Below, one piece after another: positions 18,474 to 40,680 of a DNA stretch of 64,000 nucleotides (within the stretch, counting starts at the first letter, position 1; each line of letters starts with the position of its first letter). The position numbers and the translations under genes were made by a program. Below the pieces are notes generated by a model, which was not told where the DNA came from, made no database searches, and was given only the letters and a program-made list of their open reading frames with translations. The DNA comes from Zasmidium citrigriseum (lineage: Eukaryota; Ascomycota; Dothideomycetes; Mycosphaerellales; Mycosphaerellaceae), in NCBI GenBank assembly GCA_002786025.1, contig NHNW01000002.1, positions 1,116,001 to 1,180,000 of the forward strand, in the 5' to 3' direction.

Positions 18474-19799
18474 TTACTGCGACGCGCACTGTACTCTCTC
18501 ACCACCGGCGTGCATCTCGTCGTCATCCTCGTCGGTTGCACCTCTTGCGCGCTCGCCTTCCCGCATGGGGTCGACCTTTTCTAGCGAGTAGTCTTCGGTC
18601 ATGGCGTCTGGTGGTGGGATGTTTTGTGGCATGCGTGGTGGAAGGACGGACTCGAGTGCCTTGATCTGCTGGGGTTGGAGAGGTGTTGGGTAGCCATCGG
18701 CGTCTGGTGGACCTTGGAGGCGCTCGGGGAACTTGACGTCGAATTGCACGTAGAGGTTGCCGAAGTCGTGGTGTCGGTATGAGGGCATACCTTGTCCGCG
18801 AATGACCTTGATCTCGCCTGAGAATCATGTTAGCTTCGAACTCAGAACCAAATTTGAAACGATATGGTTACCTGGTGAAATGACCTCGCCTGGAATAATC
18901 TCGACAGTCAACCACCGCTCGTCGAGGTGCTCAATGTAGATGGCACCGCCGGCAAGCGCAGTCAGGAGATCGATTTCGGCATGGTAGAAGAGGTCGTCGC
19001 CCTTGCGCTGGAATCGAGGGTGTGGCTTCGTCTCAATCTCAAACTGCACATCACCGGGCTGCACACCCGGCATCTGGTCACCCTCGCCGCGGAAGTCGAT
19101 CTTGGTGCCGTTCTGGACACCACGGTCCACGTGAACGTGGAGCACTTTCCGTTCGATGACAGTCTTCTTGCCATTGCAAGCCTTGCACTTGTCCTTCTCC
19201 CGGATCGACTCACCCTCGCCATTGCAGTCGGGGCAGACGGTCTGGAATCGCTGAATCATGGGACCCATCTGGCGCATCATCGTCTTCATACCCTGGCCAT
19301 TGCAGCCGGCGCAAGTCTTGACAGCGCCTTCCTTTCCTCCACGACCTTCACACTTAGAGCAGATAACCGACTTCTGAAGGGCCAGCTTAGAAACCTTGCC
19401 GCGGTAGATATCCTCGAGCGAGACCTTGTGGACGTGGTGGATAGTTCGTGCCTTCTTTGGACCTTGATCTCTCATGCCTCCGCCGAACATGCCACCAAGG
19501 CCACCACCGCCACCGAAGAATTGAGCGAACAGGTCCTCAGCGGCCATACCACCGCCGCCCATTCCTCCTTGCTCGAGGCCTTCCTCACCATACTGGTCGT
19601 AGAGCTGGCGCTTCTGGGGATCTGAGAGGGTCTCGTAGGCGTGTGAAATTTCCTTGAACTTCTCTGCGGCCTCGGGGTTGTGGGCGTTCTTGTCGGGGTG
19701 GTGCTTGAGGGCGCCTTTGCGGTATGCGGTCTTGAGCTGAGATTCGCTGGCGTCCGGGGGGACGCCGAGCACGTCGTAGAACTTGGTGTCTTTCACCAT
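18474..19799 (-). CDS. YDJ1: Type I Hsp40 co-chaperone (Ydj1/Mas5-like DnaJ)
   Basis: Exon 1 is 19799-18872, the intron is 18871-18818 (GTAACC...TCAG, 54 nt) and exon 2 is 18817-18474, about 423 residues. The J domain is at 1-70 with HPD at 34-36, which stimulates Hsp70 ATPase activity. A Gly/Phe-like region (GGMGGGG...) follows, then four zinc-binding repeats ([32 protein letters not shown]; the last is slightly degenerate), then two client-binding beta domains. Splicing restores the conserved [17 protein letters not shown] segment. The protein ends in CASQ, a CaaX box identical to yeast Ydj1, so it is very likely farnesylated and attached to the cytosolic face of ER and mitochondria. It should act in protein folding and import. 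Confidence 0.96.
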
Positions 19800-27829: not shown

Positions 27830-28940
27830 GGGAAAAGGTATAGCGTTATTATCTTCGAGAGCCCTCTCCTTTCTACGGGCTCGTATTGCCTATTCTAATC
27901 CCTATTTCCTTTAGCCGTAGGATTATCTTTATCTTTACTACCTTCGAGTATTCCCTCCGACTATATACTATCTAGATTTTATAGGCGTTGTTTCTTTCGT
28001 ACTAGATTGTGTAATATAAGCGTAGCGTAGTAGCGTAGAGTATCTTAATTAAGTTGTCGTTTCGCTAGCGCTAAACTTCGACGTCGAATTATCGCTAGTT
28101 ACTCCGAAGGTCGTTAATATTATAGTTAATCGAGTAATCGTTAGTAAAACGTAGATCTAGTACTACTCCTATAAGGATCTCTAGGTACTCTCTTCCTAAT
28201 TCCTCTACCTAGTCGCGAACTCTAGTAATCTAGTCTAGTAGGTTATCGTAATTCTTATCTAACTTTACTACTAACGGCGGGTTAAAGCTACCTAGCCGTC
28301 TAAGGTCCGTATTAACCCTACCTATTATTAATCGAGCTACTCTTATTATCTCTCGGTCCTACTACTTAAACCTTAATTCCTCTATAATATCCAGGTATCG
28401 TTCGTCTAAGAATTAAGTTCCCTTATCCGTTCCCTTATTAATCTCTTTCCGAATAGTTACTATAAGGATTAAAGGGGTATTAATCTCGTATCGGTGCTCG
28501 CGAACTCGAGGCTTTAAGTAGCCTACTAAATCTTCCTCTTACGGTAGTCGAGATTCGAAGAATTCGAGATATCGGTTATAGGCGGTACTAGTATACTACC
28601 GCTTTCTCGGAGAGGCGATTTTAATCGATAGTATAATAGTAGATCCGGGCGTAAGTTATCTAATAGTCTATAAGTCGGAGTCGGTTATCGTCGTATCGTG
28701 TTCGGGCTACTTCGCGCGCTTCTTTAATAGCGTCTTAGGGGGATTTATCTTATAGAAGGTATTAGGGTAAATTTCTTTAAGTTTAGAGTATCGTCGTCGC
28801 TACGGAGGTATATAGTACGAGTTTACCTAGGCTAGAGGTGTAAGTAGAAACTATACTATTCTTTTAATTAATAAATTAATAAGAGATTAGTATAGGTAGT
28901 AAGTGCGGAAGTAGATACGTAGTACTTTTAACGTCTTTAC
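27830..28940 (-). pseudogene. Decayed reading frame between RNase H and the 3' LTR
   Basis: Past the RNase H end, the same minus-strand frame stays protein-like for roughly 350 codons. Interruptions are nearly all TAA/TAG at places where CAA, CAG or TGG would be the unmutated codon. Recognisable protein-like stretches include YNRYLEFFESRLP (about 28.56 kb), ERYLDIIEELRFK (about 28.39 kb) and YLEILIGVVLDLRFTNDY (about 28.16 kb). I do not recognise a family. It may be a C-terminal extension of the polyprotein or an accessory protein. The exact ends are uncertain because mutation has removed start and stop signals. Confidence 0.5.
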
Positions 28941-31900
28941 GTAGTAGACGGTTAAGTAGTGCTACTTTATCTCCGCCCCTCCTTAACTAGTAGGTTCCTT
29001 ATTAATTAATCCGAGCGCCGCCGCTTATCGGTAGAACTCTAATAGCGTAAGCGCTTTAGTAAATATATCCGCTAGTTAGTAATATCCGGGAACGTATTCT
29101 AGATTAACGGTCTTCTCTTCGAGTAGCTAGCGAATAAAGTGGAATTAAACCCGAATATACTTAGTACGGTTATAGTACTCTAGATTCTTTGCAATTCGAA
29201 TAGTACTCTAATTGTTAACCTTAATTAGTACTAGATTGTCCGCGTATAGTAACTCGAAGAATCGAAGGATATATCGTAACTAAGCTACTTCCTTTCTAGC
29301 GTAGTAAAGTACTATGTACTCTACTTCCGCCGTCGAGAGTACTACCGTAGTTTGTTTCTTACTTAACTAGCTAACAGCCGCTCCTCTAAGCATAAATGTA
29401 TAGCCTCTAACTAACTTACTTATAAATAGATCTCTAGCGAATTCGGTATCCGTATACCCTATAAATTAGTTTGTCCTATCGAATTTTAGTATAAAGTAAG
29501 TAGTGCTCTTAACGTACTAGAGTATCCTCTAAACTAACTCGGTATATTGTTTAGTCGGGTTATAATAGAATCGGCTTACGACTAATACCGTATAGGCGAG
29601 GTCTAGGCGAGTTCTAAGTATCGTATACATTAGTAAACTAACGGTAGATTAATACTACTTCCTCTCTTCTATTAAGTAGACATAGTCGGCTAGTAGTATA
29701 TCGTACTTAATATCCGTTCGAATCGGGGTAGCCTATAGATTCCCGGTAACTTTAAAGCGTTCAAGTAGCTTCCGGAGGTAGGTTTCTTAACTAAGGATAA
29801 TTTAGTTACCGTTTCGAATAATTTTAATCCCGAGGAAGTGCTAGTAGATACCGAGATCCTTTATATCGAACTCCTTTACTAGTTGCTACTTAATTTCGGT
29901 AATTTAATTAATGTCGGGCCTAGCTACTAGTAGATCGTCGACGTACACTAGAATAAAGGTATCGTCTTTCTTAAATATAGCCGTATCGTTCTTATAAGGG
30001 GTAAAGCTATACTTCTTAAGTGCCTTTTTTAATATAAGGTACTAGATCCGTAGAGCCCGCTTAAGTCCGTAGAGAGCCTTGTTTAACTTGTATACCTTTC
30101 TAGGTTGTTTATAGCTAGGCGGTAGTTAAACGTATATCTCGATGTCGATATCTCCGTAGAGGAAGGCCGTCTTAACGTCTATTTAATAAACCTCCTATCT
30201 ATAAATAGAGGCTAGCGCGAATAGCGTCTTGTAGCTTATTAGCTTTACTACCGCCGTAAAGGTTTCTTTAAAATTAATCCCTTCTTCTTGTTTAAAACCT
30301 CTTACAACCTAGCGTAACTTAAACCGGTTTACGTTTCCTTTAGCGTCGCACTTTAACTTGTATACCTATTTCCTAGTAAGTACTAGTTTGCTATTAAGGG
30401 TGCTTTTATCGACGAGTGTCTAGGTTACGTTCTTAATTAGCGAGTCGTACTCTTCGTCTATTAATACTTGCTATTTATCTCGATTAGGACACTTGTCGCT
30501 CGTAGCGTCCTTATATAATTTCGGTTCGACGGCGTCTTGGACCGAGAGCTTTATATATACGCTAGTAGGTTCGTCGGTAGAGCCTAGCTCTATTCGTATA
30601 TAGACATACTAATCTAGATCTTCTAAATTAATTATTAGCGTGTTGCTCGCGTTAACGTTAATATTAGAGGCCCCGTCTTAGTTATGCTTAGCTTGTCGTT
30701 ATAGTAGTATACGAAACTTCGGTAAATAGTCCCTCGTAAAGTACATATAGTCGTTTTACTTAAGGCGTATAAAACTAGGTCCCTAGGAGCCTAGTTAGCC
30801 GTTACTCGATCGTTAGCGCTTCTCCGGCGGTTCCTTTAGTAGTAGATTGTCTAAGCTATTACCGAGCTAGTCGTTACTTTAATTCTCCTACTCGGCGAGT
30901 GTGTTAGCGAGTTCGTCGAAGCTAGGTAGGTCGCCGTACTTATTACCTATATTAATGTCGGTCGGAAGAAGGTTATCTACCGTCGTTTCTCTACGTAGAT
31001 TAGCGGATCGCTTTAGATATTAGATATTTGTTACCGAATTGTCTAGCTTTGTGTCCTTATAAAAAACGACTTCCTTCGCGCGCTCGATCTTTCCGGTAAA
31101 AGGATTCTAGAGCTAGTAAAGGTAAGTGCCGTTATAGCCTACGAGTACGCGCATTTTAGCACGGTTATCCTACTTCTTAAGTCTTATCTTAGCCTTCGGG
31201 TACAGTTTAAAACAAGTGTAACCTAACCGCTTTATCTAGTATAGGTCCGGCTTACGGGTAGTAAATGCTTCGAAAGGAGTTATCTAGTTTAGAAGCGCCG
31301 ATATTAGTCTCCTATTAATTAGGAACACGGCGGCTTTAACTAGTTCTAGCTACAATTTTGGTTTAAGATTACCTTTAACCTTTAAGTAGCGTATAATGTC
31401 CTATATCTCTCTATATCGGCGTTTAGCAACTCTATTTTAGTCCGGTTAATATAGAGCCGTTAGCTCCTACTCGATGCCTATTTCCCTCGCTAGTTAGGCT
31501 ATAATTTAATTAAACTCTAGTCCGAGGTCTAAGCGGAAAGCCTTAACTCGCTAGCTAGTTTTTCTTTTAACGCGTTTAATAAAGTCGCGAATATGTATTG
31601 TAATCTCCGGCCTATCCTTTAATTTCGTAGTATAGATCTAGGTGTATCTAGTAAGGTCGTTAACTAGTATAAGGTAGTACAATTCGCCCGATTCGGCTAT
31701 TAGTCGTTTATCGCTTTGTCGTTTTATAGGTCCGTAGAGGTCTATATAAATTAGGCCGAGTCGTTCTTCGTATCGTAAAGGTTAATTCTTAAGAAACGTT
31801 CGTATAGCTTTACCGCGGACGTATACCGTATAGTCGAAAGATTTATCTTAAAAGTTAGTACCTATTAATTAAAGTAGCTTACGGTAGGCCGGCAAGTTAA

Positions 31901-34780
31901 GATGTCTAAGTCGTTAGTACTATACTCTAAGTAGTAGCTTAGGAGTCGTACGTAAATTAATAAAGGCGCGCGTAAGTCCTATTAACGGGTTAGCGATTCG
32001 TTATAAGTAGCCGTTCTACTAGTCCTTATTAATTAAGTGTCTAAGGGCAATGTTTAGTAACTATAGGTTTCCGACCTAGGTACCCTTCGTAACAAGCTCC
32101 TTAGTTTCTCGGTCTCTAAACTCGTACTATCCTATATCCGAAGTATAGGTAAGGCCGCCTTCGTATATTATTGTAACCGAAAGGAGGTTAACTCTTATCT
32201 ATAGCACGTAGAGTATATACTTTAGTTCTAGCGTCTAAACTCCGTTCGCTTACTTAACGGTTAGTCGTACTAATCTAGACCTAATTACGTAAAAGCCCGT
32301 ACCGTATCTATCTATCTTAACCTTCCGTTTAAACGCTTTATAACTTCCCTACACAAACATCTCCTTCTAATAGTAGATATGTTACTCGTAACTACTATTA
32401 ACAATCTAGTCGAGTTTACCTAGTTCTAGTATACGTATATCGACGTCCGTCGTCTTAGGTTTAATTACCGAATAGTTAGATAGGCGGATAGTCGTTAGAA
32501 GTCGCCGTCGCCCTACTAGTTATTCTAATAGCGCTAGTAAATACCCTTTTAGTACGGAGACAACTCGAACATTCGACTTCGCAAATCTAGCGGTAGTTCG
32601 AACGACTATCGTATCCTCTTCTACTTGTTAATTATCTTCCTTATTATCCTATTAAGCTAAGTATACACCCGCTCGTCTATTAGGCCTACTATTTCCTCGT
32701 AAAGCGTTAAACTATCTTGTCTGCCCGTTAGCTTACTTATATGCCCGCTCCCCGTTATATATCTATACTTCGCGAGTATCTAGCTTATAGTAGGAGCGTA
32801 AATAAGGGTATTAGTTTCGACATTCTCCGTTCGTATAAGGCGTCCTTTTATAGTTAGGTAGTCGATATTAGCTTACGAATAGTCCTTTAAGTTTAGCTCT
32901 TAGATAAGGTCTTTTAGCCGAGTAAATAACCTACTTTAGGTCCTATTTATAGTTACTTAAATATCGGCCTAGTCCGTTACTAAACGACCGCTTTTAGCCG
33001 CTAAATCTTCCTATACCTCTAGTAGCGAAAGCTCCTACTATTATTTAATCCCCCTATTCCTACGACTATATTCCTTTAAACTCGTGCCGTACTAATCGTT
33101 TAAAGTCGTTAAATAAAGTCTTAGGTCCTCGTCTAAAGCTAGTAATATTACTTAACTAAAATTGTATCTTCGTCTAGTTACGGAAGTTCGGACCTAGATT
33201 CTTTAAGAGAAGTAGCGTCTATTCGCTCTCGGATATCTTAAAATTAGCGTTTAACCGATTCTACTCTAGGATGTTTTACTTAAACTTCTTAATAAATTTC
33301 TCGTAGGGCTTATCCTCTACTATAAAATCCGGTAACTTGTAATTATACATTACGTCGTAAATTAGGAATCCTATAAAGGGATTTAATAAAGTATATTTAT
33401 CCCTTAGGCGGTCTATAACCGCCTTTACTATATATATATCCTTTAGTAGTTCGCCGAGTAATAGTTTGTATCGAGAGATAATATTAGCTAATAGGATTTT
33501 ATTCGCCCTTTCCTACATAGCGAGTAAGATTATTACTTCGTTATACTTCTCTACGGAGACATTCGCTTTAGGTTCCCTCGGAGGGTCGTTTTATATAGTC
33601 CGCTACTACGGACCTAGTCTACCTATTTAAGCGGCAATACCGCATTTACTTTGAAAATTAGTCTAATTTAATGCGCCTTATAGTTTAGGTACTAATTTTT
33701 TCTATAACTTTCCTATATCCTTTACTTACGCTATAGCGGTAAAGTAATCGGTACTCTACCGAGTAATCTTCTTTTCTACCTTTAGAGGTATAGTTAAATA
33801 CTTCCGAGGATTCCTCGGTACAACGTTCTTAAAAGCGTTATTAATATAACGCTAAAGGTTATTAAGTAAGTCGTTTTTAGTAGTAGCCGTAGGCTCGTTA
33901 GGTAGCTCGTTTACGTCTTCGTTAGATAACGTTTCTTCTTCTTCTTCGTCTAATTAATAACCGAGTTCGCCTTAGTCTAAGGCTTAAGGCTCCTTTAGTG
34001 TTAAATCGTAATTCTTATTAAAAGGAGCCTAGTAGACGGGAGTAGATTTTTTGTTAGGGAGTATAGTCTTAATACTACCTTACTCCCCTTCCCTAGGGAA
34101 GCGCTTTAGGGTCTCTAGGTTAGTATTTTTATTAGCTAATAGTTTAGCTTTCTTCTTCTTTAGCTTATTAGCCTTTCGTTTCTTCGTAGGCTAGTTATTA
34201 AGTGTTAATAAGCTTAGTTGAATCTCCTCTAGTATTCTTTAAAAGTTAGTATTTTAAAAAGGTTAGCGTTATGCCCTTATTTTAATTACTTCGGTAATAT
34301 TACGCTTATAATCTTCTTTAAATGTTCTCTTATTCGCTTACGATTTAAGACTTTGTTAAAGTAGCGTTACTTAGCCTTCGCTTCGCGGTTTTGCAATCTT
34401 CTACGATCGTATTCTTCTTATAATTAACCTAGTTTAGGTCCTTTAGTAGTAGGTATATTCTTTAATTTAATCTCGTAGTTATTAAAAAGGAGAATTATTA
34501 AAAACTCTAATATTAGCTTTCGGATTTAGACAGTCCGCGTAGGGACTATCCTAGCCTTAGCTAATTAACTTTTCCGTCTTAACACTTATATCTTATAATC
34601 GATCGTTATTAATTTTAAGGGGAGTTTAAAGACTCCGCTTATCCGTTGTAGTCTTAAAGACTTCTCTTGTAATGCTAAGTGCTCGTAGCGGAAGGTTAGT
34701 TGATTCATAAGGTAGTTGACATTAAATGAAAACATTAAATAATCGCTTATAGTATCGTTATTATGTCTATTTGCGCATTC
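28940..34780 (-). pseudogene. Copia gag-pol relic (Gag, protease, integrase, RT, RNase H)
   Basis: Remains of the polyprotein. Integrase: IYIDLYGPI with its Asp codon at 31742-31740, LILVNDLTRYT at about 31.65 kb, then a diverged FRLDLGLEFN and ELTALY at about 31.5 kb. Reverse transcriptase: KKYSFTPYKNDTAIF leading into VYVDD (minus strand, 29948-29934), the catalytic YVDD box. RNase H: NRTKYIRV-stop-FHFIR at about 29.12-29.17 kb, where the stop replaces Gln, then EEKTVNLEYVPGYY-stop-LADIFTKAL. Upstream of integrase (about 32-34.7 kb) should lie protease and Gag, but I could not align them. Many in-frame stops make the gene non-functional. Confidence 0.88.
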
Positions 34781-34793
34781 TAGGCTTATAACC

Positions 34794-34903
34794 TATTAAA
34801 GATTATAAGCGATACATTGTTAGCCGCTATCTAGGTAATACGACTAACTAATATAGGTGAAGGATCGCTACCCTGTTGATGACACGTCATTCAAACGTTA
34901 ATA
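34794..34903 (-). repeat. Right LTR (5' LTR of the element)
   Basis: 110-bp partner of the left LTR and the more heavily mutated of the two (five of six differences are TpG-to-TpA or CpA-to-TpA changes here). As the 5' LTR of a minus-strand element it would hold the promoter. Confidence 0.93.
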
Positions 34904-34908
34904 TGCCC
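34904..34908. repeat. Target-site duplication, right
   Basis: TGCCC immediately after the right LTR, identical to the left copy. Confidence 0.9.
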
Positions 34909-35730
34909 GCCCGGTCGATGCAACCCTGTCGGCGCACCCACTCTGATGTTACATCAGCTAAGGAAGGCGCTCCGGGTCTCTGATTGGGCGGCAGGCGCGG
35001 TCTACAAAAGCAGGGCAGGTGCCAGCGGGGCATCCTTGCGCAAGGGTGATCGGCGCGCCACTGACCTCAATCGACATGGAGTTGAGATATGGCTGCGCTG
35101 GCGTGCGGCGTGGCTTGCCAGACCTCACTGCTTCTCCTGCTGCTCCGATGAAGGGGTCATGCACCTACCGAGGTGTTGTGCTGTGTGCTGCTGGTCTGCA
35201 TGCAGCTGTCGGTAGAGCTCGCAGCCTGATCGGCGTGAGCTGAGACAGCTGTATACCAGCAGACTGTGAAGATGGAGTGAGGATGGTAGAGGTAGGCTGT
35301 TGTTGAACGGTGTAAATTATCATTGCTAAACATTTCGTCGCCATTGCTCTCGAGGCCATCATGCCTGACATAGTGTACATAGCGAGCGCGCTGATAGCGA
35401 CCGTACAAAGATTCCACTGGACTTTTAGCTGCCGTGCATATGTAAATTCGTCTCTTCCAACGAGACGTTGAGGCATACTAGCCCGTAAATCCCATACTCA
35501 TACAGGCCTGCACTGTACTGTGTGCGGCTATCCAGTACTCCTCTAAACGCCGTGCAAGCAAGCTGTGGTCCAAGAATCTTTCCACTGCCGAAATTGGGGT
35601 ATCAAGTCGAAGTAAGCGATCGTCGTTGAAACAAATCCAGAACCGTACGCCTGTCGATCAATGCGCAATACCGCTTGCGCGCTGTACAAAGCGTTTCGAA
35701 AATTCGTATTACAATCAGATAGTCGTTGAA
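34909..35730. other. Intergenic region right of the retrotransposon
   Basis: About 820 bp with ordinary composition that returns abruptly at the element edge. It carries the 3' region of the FlbC-like gene. Short frames on both strands show no motifs. Confidence 0.5.
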
Positions 35731-36905
35731 TTACTCCTCGTCGTCCTCAGGTGATGGGTGGTCACGACCCTCGCCCTTGTGGACCTTGCGATGTCTTCGC
35801 AGGTTGGAGACAACGGAGAAATGGCGGCCACAGCCTTCAACATCACAGGCGAATGCTACAAAATATTAGTCGATGTTCATGCTTTAGGATCCTCAATCAA
35901 CTTACGCTTCTCGCCGGTGTGGCTGTACATATGGGTTTGGAGCGAGCTTGGTCGTGTAAATCGCTTGTCACAAATCTTGCACTTGTGCTTCTTTTGCGAG
36001 CTCGACGAAACCTTGGAGCTGAATTGGCCCATCATCGATTGTGGTGCCGGGGGCAGAGTGCCACCGATCAGACCATTTGGTCGGGGAAGCGTTCGCGATG
36101 GCATATCGACAGATTCGCTGGCAGAGCTGTAGTCGCCAACAGATGCTTCGCTGACGGAGCTGTAATACGACGTCGGGTACGTGCTCGCTGAGGAGATCGA
36201 CGAGTGCGATGAGTGTGCGGATGGAAAGCCGTACGAGTCGGTCGAGCTTCGCCCTGAGGCTTGTCCACCGTAGATGTTTCTTGGAGTGATGTCTGACTGG
36301 CTCATGGCGACCATGCCACGGCTTGCGTCAAGAGCATCACTAAAGCTTTGGCGCTCAGCTTCTGAAGCCGAAGCCATCCTGTCGCTGAAGTCAATTAATG
36401 AACTTTGGCGAAACTTCTGGACCTCAATTGGGTCGCCCATGAACATGGTGGATGGTACTGACGGGTGCGACGAGCGCCGGTCATACTGAGGATACGCAGC
36501 AGCGTACTGAGGCGCTGAGGTTGGCGCGAATGATTGTTGAGGTGGGCCAGATGTGTATGGTGCACCATAAGGCCGGGGAGCGTTCATCCCATCTTCAGCG
36601 AATTGTAAGCTACCCTGTTCGAAGAGCTCTGGGTCCACTGGAATGATACCTGATGCCATGGCAGGTGCGGAGATGTGTTGGCCACCAGCGTACGCCGCCG
36701 AAACATTGGGTGCCTGGACGTATCGCGCATCGCCGCCGACAGTAGTCTGTGGCATTGAGGTCGCGTACATCTGGCCATGATTGCTGGATGGCGCAGACAC
36801 CCAAGGGTTCGTGAACTGCGGCGCAGCCTGGGGGTATCTCATCGCATCGTAGCCCATGTTGCTGAACTGGTGATGCTGTTGGCGGGAGTCGACGGCCATT
36901 GCCAT
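35731..36905 (-). CDS. flbC: C2H2 zinc-finger transcription factor, FlbC-like
   Basis: Exon 1 is 36905-35906, the intron is 35905-35856 (GTAAGT...TGTAG, 50 nt) and exon 2 is 35855-35731, giving 374 residues. The first 300 residues are low-complexity (Ala, Gln, Pro, Ser, Tyr), typical of an activation region. Near the C-terminus are two adjacent C2H2 fingers. The first is HKCKICDKRFTRPSSLQTHMYSH. It is followed by the TGEKP linker, which is created by splicing. The second is CDVEGCGRHFSVVSNLRRHRKVH and is almost entirely in exon 2. This two-finger block and its C-terminal position match FlbC of Aspergillus, which promotes asexual development. An acidic tail (SPEDDEE) closes the protein. Orthology to FlbC is by motif; other C2H2 regulators share similar fingers. 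Confidence 0.8.
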
Positions 36906-40491: not shown

Positions 40492-40680
40492 TGCATCGGC
40501 CGGGACTTCGACAACCGTCAGACTCTGCTCGTTCGCCTCCAGAAGAGAGAAATACTCACATCGAACCCGGGGCTCGTCGAGATTCAGCAGAATGGCAACG
40601 ACGACTTATTTTGAGGTCAGCGAATGTTCTAACAACTCAAGAATCGTTTAACGGACATTTTACCACTAAACCACCAATGC
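40492..40680 (-). tRNA. tRNA-Gly(GCC) split by three inserts, two of them GT-AG type
   Basis: Mature 71-nt parts on the minus strand: 40680-40657 (acceptor GCATTGG, TG, complete D arm), 40604-40593 plus 40580-40560 (anticodon arm, variable loop, 5' side of T arm) and 40505-40492 (rest of T arm, acceptor CCGATGC, discriminator A). Joined, every stem pairs: acceptor 7 bp with one G-T, anticodon stem CGTCG/CGACG around loop TTGCCAT, T stem CCGGG/CCCGG around TTCGATT. The D arm and anticodon loop equal those of yeast tRNA-Gly(GCC). Inserts: 40656-40605 (52 nt, GTCCGT...AATAAG), 40592-40581 (12 nt, canonical position 37/38) and 40559-40506 (54 nt, GTGAGT...GAAG). Both long inserts contain CTGAC 10-15 nt before the AG. 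The T-loop insert splits the B box. A processed-tRNA test is needed to call it functional. Confidence 0.75.

Follow-up and report, generated by a model that had tools for sequence, protein, structure and literature searches.

How can a tRNA gene interrupted by inserts resembling mRNA introns, one of them within the T loop, give rise to a tRNA, and which machinery would remove these inserts? The question is raised by a tRNA-Gly(GCC) gene carried on the minus strand of a 64,000-nt stretch of the Zasmidium citrigriseum genome (hereafter the window; G000:C61:1116001-1180000, G000 being the 44.4 Mb assembly of 148 contigs). A sequence-only reading of the window had proposed three possibilities: processing by spliceosomes, excision of ectopic introns by the tRNA endonuclease, or invasion of a gene that is now dead. 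tRNA introns and mRNA introns are usually viewed as separate worlds, handled by separate enzymes. From the comparison of sequences, we consider it very probable that the window gene and others like it are live nuclear tRNA genes invaded by U2-type spliceosomal introns, which the spliceosome removes.

The split gene occupies positions 40680-40492 of the minus strand, as defined by reading of the sequence and by ARAGORN on the spliced form. Exon 1 (40657..40680) includes tRNA positions 1-25, the acceptor 5' strand and the D arm. A 52-nt spliceosomal-type intron, GTCCGT...CTGAC...AAG (40605..40656), separates positions 25 and 26 and contains a branch-site-like CTGAC at 40616..40620, with its A at 40617. 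Exon 2 (40593..40604) carries the 5' part of the anticodon arm up to A37, with the anticodon GCC, and is followed at 37/38 by an ordinary 12-nt tRNA intron of the tRNA endonuclease type (40581..40592). Exon 3 (40560..40580) is composed of the 3' part of the anticodon arm, the variable loop, the 5' strand of the T stem and the T loop as far as position 59. Between positions 59 and 60 lies a 54-nt spliceosomal-type intron, GTGAGT...CTGAC...AAG (40506..40559), whose branch-site-like CTGAC is located at 40517..40521 (A at 40518). Exon 4 (40492..40505) completes the molecule with the T stem 3' strand, the acceptor 3' strand and the discriminator A. The sequence-only reading had described both inserts by their motifs (GTGAGT, CTGAC and AG in the T loop, 40559-40506; GT, CTGAC and AG between the D and anticodon arms) and had noted a downstream TTTTT tract, present at 40479-40475 and probably a Pol III terminator; all of this is borne out. 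Its proposal that excision of 40656-40605, 40592-40581 and 40559-40506 leaves a perfect 71-nt tRNA-Gly(GCC) is exact in its coordinates. ARAGORN agrees: given the gene without its two GT-AG inserts, it calls tRNA-Gly(gcc) of 71 bases, all of whose stems pair, and places a 12-nt intron in the anticodon loop. The spliced form has the cloverleaf, the conserved bases and the anticodon GCC. The unspliced window gene receives no ARAGORN call and no Rfam match at the gathering threshold.

The A box of the gene is whole, while the B box is broken between positions 59 and 60. The claim that the T-loop insert disrupts this promoter element stands with a nuance: going by the consensus of the 11-nt box, the insert in this gene replaces just the final three bases. 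The combination of GT, CTRAY at the observed distance and AG was found in 39 of 1,150,920 stretches of 50-58 nt (window, both strands). A chance origin of the window inserts was rejected because each of four further Gly(GCC) copies in the genome also has a pair of them. Self-splicing introns of group I or II, whose ribozyme core takes some hundred nucleotides, were discarded as well: the inserts measure 50-58 nt and nothing in the window matches Rfam at the gathering threshold.

Five Gly(GCC) copies were found in the genome (the window copy, L002, L003, L004 and L065), each with two GT-AG inserts. Three of them were retrieved by BLAST with the window locus and the fifth (L065, or Gly5) by a pattern placing a donor in the T loop. 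Both intron sites, 25/26 and 59/60, are common to copies 1-4, and the T-loop site is common to all five. The first intron of copy 5 lies elsewhere, in the D loop (GTGG|GTCGGT...CAG|TAAAAT). Copies 4 and 5 (L004 and L065) are devoid of the canonical 37/38 intron, so that the inserts vary independently. The mature sequence is identical at 71 of 71 positions in copies 1-4 despite their differing introns (pairwise identity of 59-80% for the first intron and 57-89% for the second). Copy 5 differs from the others by four changes in the anticodon stem, which make up two compensatory pairs. These conserved paralogue exons argue against the dead-gene option of the sequence-only reading. More generally, they oppose the idea that split genes are pseudogenes or relics while other tRNAs do the work, to which we give almost no credence.

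A genome search for other tRNA-Gly(GCC) genes, suggested by the same reading, thus gave split copies in every case and no intact 3' half. The exon preceding the T-loop intron has five exact copies genome-wide, each then running into an intron, and a sixth match with one mismatch, located in the conserved TTC; the reversed control gave one match. With the joined T arm and acceptor start as query, no uninterrupted Gly form was found in the assembly within 3 mismatches, and two matches to this pattern belong to Val-CAC and Pro-CGG. With no uninterrupted Gly(GCC) 3' half found, these searches of the assembly yielded no intron-free Gly(GCC) gene, a result which, with the T runs retained downstream, also weighs against the split genes being relics.

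The phenomenon spans many genes of the genome and is not limited to one odd gene. Nine further split nuclear tRNA genes were identified: three Lys-CTT, Arg-CCT, Arg-ACG, Val-CAC, Val-AAC, Leu-CAG and Pro-CGG. In total, 14 split genes carry 24 inserts, represent eight different anticodons and include up to three inserts per tRNA. The insertion sites are distributed between the D loop, the junction of the D and anticodon arms, the variable region, the T arm and the acceptor stem. Two Lys-CTT genes (L078 and L080) are interrupted in the T arm at 54/55 and in the acceptor 3' strand, the third (L082) in the acceptor 3' strand only. L082 is contiguous through the T arm, where it matches the L078 and L080 sequence after insert removal. 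Within 3 mismatches, the joined Lys end was found only in L082 itself, with the intron directly after, and in a lone T-arm fragment. Arg-CCT (L075) possesses three introns (acceptor 5' strand, 53/54 and acceptor 3' strand), and Arg-ACG (L058) is split in the T loop at 58/59. Val-CAC (L034) carries its insert, mistaken by ARAGORN for an anticodon intron, in the variable loop; Leu-CAG (L073) in the variable arm; Val-AAC (within L083) in the D loop. Pro-CGG (L110 and L108) has inserts in both the D loop and the variable loop. Canonical anticodon-loop introns occur in several of these genes: 12, 19 and 18 nt in Gly, 9 and 10 nt in Lys L078 and L080, 28 nt in Pro, 30 nt in Val-AAC and 32 nt in Leu.

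Once the GT-AG inserts are removed, ARAGORN gives the expected tRNA and anticodon in all 14 cases. With the inserts left in, it is silent for 9 of the 12 genes tested and misplaces the intron in Val-CAC and Leu. Some blemishes accompany the spliced predictions: four G-U pairs in the acceptor stem of Arg-CCT, a T-T mismatch in the Lys L078 and L080 anticodon stems, and an extra acceptor pair in Arg-CCT, Lys L082 and Leu. In Arg-ACG and L082, moreover, all or most of the anticodon intron is drawn as an additional arm.

Several features were observed beside these genes. The three Lys loci share a near-identical trailer, some 40 nt long, in which a hairpin precedes the T run; the hairpin reads CTGTC-AAA-GACAG, or CTATC-AAA-GATAG in L082, a two-sided change. 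This trailer may aid splicing of the acceptor-stem intron or be another small RNA. A solitary copy of the Lys T arm and acceptor lies at about position 2443 of L082 (G000:C105:705725) with no tRNA body ahead of it. The minus strand of L087, close to its D-arm match, carries a sequence resembling a tRNA whose T arm is intact but in which the 5' acceptor strand was not located; it may have an intron near its 5' end or be a pseudogene.

Fifteen other nuclear tRNA genes were read and contain no GT-AG insert: Gly-TCC, three Ser, two Ala, three Thr, Glu, two Tyr, Phe, L033 (of unsure isotype) and L017. For two loci our reading of the anticodon stem departs from the ARAGORN assignment. L011, called Ala, reads as Thr(AGT), and L017 (G000:C115:88560-88649), called Asn(gtt), reads as Arg(ACG) with an intron at the canonical site. 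If L017 is indeed an Arg(ACG) gene free of spliceosomal-type introns, removal of the insert need not be obligatory for that anticodon. This seemingly unsplit gene, together with the 9 of 12 genes that ARAGORN overlooks before removal, is what can be set on the side of the relics.

The manner in which genes were collected bears on these counts. Gly5 and Arg-ACG came from a donor-containing pattern with 39 matches (100 in the reversed control), of which 37 were read, that is all but L048 and C118:33053; they comprised five tRNA genes, three of them already known, and the Gly copy on C64 falls outside this pattern. The other eight split genes were reached by routes that include no intron motif: the Rfam tRNA model, a pattern for the D arm, that for the joined Gly T arm (which gave Pro) and flanking sequence. 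The Rfam model, which is biased against split genes, gave 35 matches (63 of 1309 candidates scored). Of these, 17 lie on C41 and C51, contigs whose small size goes with a presumed mitochondrial origin, and a single one lies on C49; when these are set aside, the remaining 17 include 4 split genes. One D-arm pattern gave 46 matches (68 in the reversed control). Among the 17 read, which include L011 and L016, all 7 exact matches and one mismatched match are tRNA genes, and 3 of these 8 are split; among the 29 unread matches is one with an identical D arm, at C127:338983. A further D-arm pattern gave 30 matches versus 41 in the reversed control, and the one read was the known Gly-TCC gene. Sampling being biased in this way, the 14 split genes give no genome-wide fraction. 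On contig C49, an 11-kb AT-rich-looking sequence, a 163-nt tRNA-Ser-like match (L031, G000:C49:1634-1796) is probably degenerate.

The inserts are strikingly uniform. All 24 have GT-AG ends and a length of 50-58 nt, and 23 contain CTRAC with its A 10-12 nt before the end, a placement of CTRAC seen in 427 of 48,000 shuffled introns (0.9%). The exception, the T-loop insert of Gly5, exhibits by eye CTGAT with the A 11 nt before the end. Their 3' ends are CAG (18), AAG (4) or TAG (2). The mature product permits between 1 and 6 equivalent boundary placements per insert (mean 1.6). None of the 24 is located at 37/38, the TSEN-type site. Five canonical introns of these genes, 9-19 nt long, were tested likewise and show neither GT-AG nor CTRAY signals. 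It is this contrast that favours the spliceosome among the three possibilities proposed initially, its action being deduced from the motifs.

The same contrast opposes a view in which the tRNA splicing endonuclease cuts the inserts out and tRNA ligase seals the exons, the inserts being ectopic tRNA introns like those of the red alga Cyanidioschyzon merolae and of Thermoproteales archaea. tRNA introns at several positions are documented in these groups (PMC4033280 and PMC9602550), and PMC4033280 gives C. merolae as the eukaryote with multiple tRNA introns. The resemblance thus extends to several introns per tRNA and to non-canonical sites. Here, GT, CTRAY and AG recur with fixed spacing in each of the 24 inserts. 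To our knowledge the tRNA endonuclease has no need of such signals; introns of C. merolae and Thermoproteales are removed by this enzyme at bulge-helix-bulge structures. A search for these structures in 22 inserts (the two Pro introns left out) found at least 3 of the 4 central pairs in 15, compared with 42% of random placements, but 8 of these 15 are Gly copies and not independent. The full 4-bp helix appeared in 2 of 22, versus 6.2% of 5000 random placements, and so is roughly as rare as chance would give. The five canonical controls form 2-3 pairs, not above background, and since these positive controls fail it too, the helix test is weak. In view of the splice signals, we regard endonuclease removal of the GT-AG inserts as very unlikely.

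Removal by the spliceosome predicts likeness to other introns of the genome, and the inserts resemble in size and signals those of U6 and of the DnaJ gene. The U6 model gave three matches, all under the gathering score, each with GGCC|GTAAGT at one site (L107, G000:C72:164880-165040; L109, C59:490940-491115; L118, C117:112075-112190). In L107 (56 nt) and L109 (58 nt) the intron is complete, GTAAGT...CTAAC...AG, and was read through to AG|CCTGCACTAAGG. L118 was read on the donor side only (5' exon and part of the intron), with ACTAAT downstream. In the window, the minus-strand DnaJ intron (18818..18871, 54 nt) reads GTAACC...CTRAY...CAG with the A 12 nt before the end; it was chosen among in-frame candidates as the one that keeps the DnaJ protein continuous. 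The signal is weaker or absent in two other window mRNA introns, that of P0 (62 nt, CTAAG by eye) and that of a cysteine synthase (59 nt, no CTRAY). The tRNA introns are therefore more uniform than these two.

Uniform length might also point to recent introner-like elements copied across the genome, and PMC4457414 documents such elements, and with them spliceosomal intron gains, in related Dothideomycetes. The word tRNA is absent from the main text of that source. In our genome search, 22 joined introns gave, at E values up to 10, 15 matches, all in their own tRNA loci; diverged copies would escape such a search. No dispersed copies of the tRNA introns were found in it, unlike what introner-like elements would leave, and we judge an introner origin improbable. 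A plasmid collection contained no match to the window Gly locus, and the split Gly T arm was not found in viral contigs. The Gly exon-intron word does occur in seven IMG/VR contigs (L111-L117), which were rejected as unrelated leader-like sequence with no ARAGORN tRNA; they share a conserved leader-like word that matches it by chance.

Transcription of the split genes is a further question, the B box being interrupted in 9 of the 14 (the five Gly, Arg-ACG, Arg-CCT and Lys L078 and L080). An interrupted B box should lower TFIIIC binding, so either TFIIIC tolerates the break or upstream elements carry the promoter function. Upstream stretches look alike by eye in split and unsplit genes, and TATA-like and CAATCA-like words are present in some. 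Within 75 nt downstream, a run of at least 5 T was seen by eye in each of the 13 split genes read (Pro left out) and likewise in all 15 unsplit genes. The inserts contain one TTTT in 1287 nt, where about 3.6 are expected at the window rate, and no TTTTT, which fits Pol III although only about 0.8 would be expected. An avoidance of T runs in the introns is only suggestive.

The broken B box has a different reading, in which Pol II transcribes the split genes, the spliceosome still acts and the tRNA is cut from a longer spliced transcript. Splicing is coupled to Pol II, which gives this reading some appeal. The T runs after all 13 split genes read and the introns free of TTTTT speak against it, as does U6, which is transcribed by Pol III in other fungi and bears the same kind of intron here. 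We hold Pol II transcription to be unlikely, if less so than the other alternatives. The precursor would rather be transcribed by Pol III, the 50-58-nt GT-AG introns excised by the spliceosome and the separate anticodon-loop intron taken out by tRNA endonuclease and ligase, while end-trimming would yield a normal tRNA; this order of steps is presumed. Since no uninterrupted gene was found in the assembly, Gly(GCC) and the acceptor 3' strand of Lys(CTT) would have to rely on the spliceosome for intron removal.

Known systems share some of these features. According to PMC5832005, U3 introns are normal spliceosomal introns, and U3 and U6 were then the sole known cases of small structured RNAs in which introns are frequent; a study cited there deals with repeated gain of U6 introns in fungi. 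The likeness is that of a short GT-AG intron with a branch site inside a small structured RNA gene; the hosts here, however, are tRNAs of eight anticodons, with up to three introns each in many arms. Canonical 37/38 introns, processed by TSEN and ligase, coexist with the inserts in several split genes, whereas the 24 inserts sit elsewhere and bear mRNA splice signals. Spliceosomal introns also occur in ascomycete nuclear rRNA genes, another case of mRNA-type introns in structural RNA, but rRNA is a Pol I transcript. Among the matches listed in the open-access literature, a scope that leaves most subscription papers outside, we recognised none that describes nuclear tRNA genes with spliceosomal introns, nor do the excerpts of PMC6461891, PMC4494063 and PMC4090602 contain anything on them.

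It is likely, in our opinion, that the spliceosome has become essential for tRNA processing in this lineage, with a large share of nuclear tRNA genes split in almost any arm and with transcription no longer dependent on an unbroken B box, perhaps thanks to upstream TATA-like elements. Spliceosome activity would then directly limit translation capacity, and intron gain, the evolution of Pol III promoters and the access of the spliceosome to folded RNA could be studied together. Should a eukaryote require both machineries for many of its tRNAs, the boundary between them is not fixed, and tRNA finders under-count such genomes.

Two minor observations concern the remainder of the window. The region 28001-36000 is AT-rich, with a GC content of 0.39-0.41 versus 0.53-0.58 elsewhere, and is perhaps a repeat region altered by RIP. 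A GNAT-family protein encoded in the window has its nearest matches in a metagenome protein (70% identity) and in two Zasmidium cellare proteins (68% and 65%), with those of other Mycosphaerellales next.
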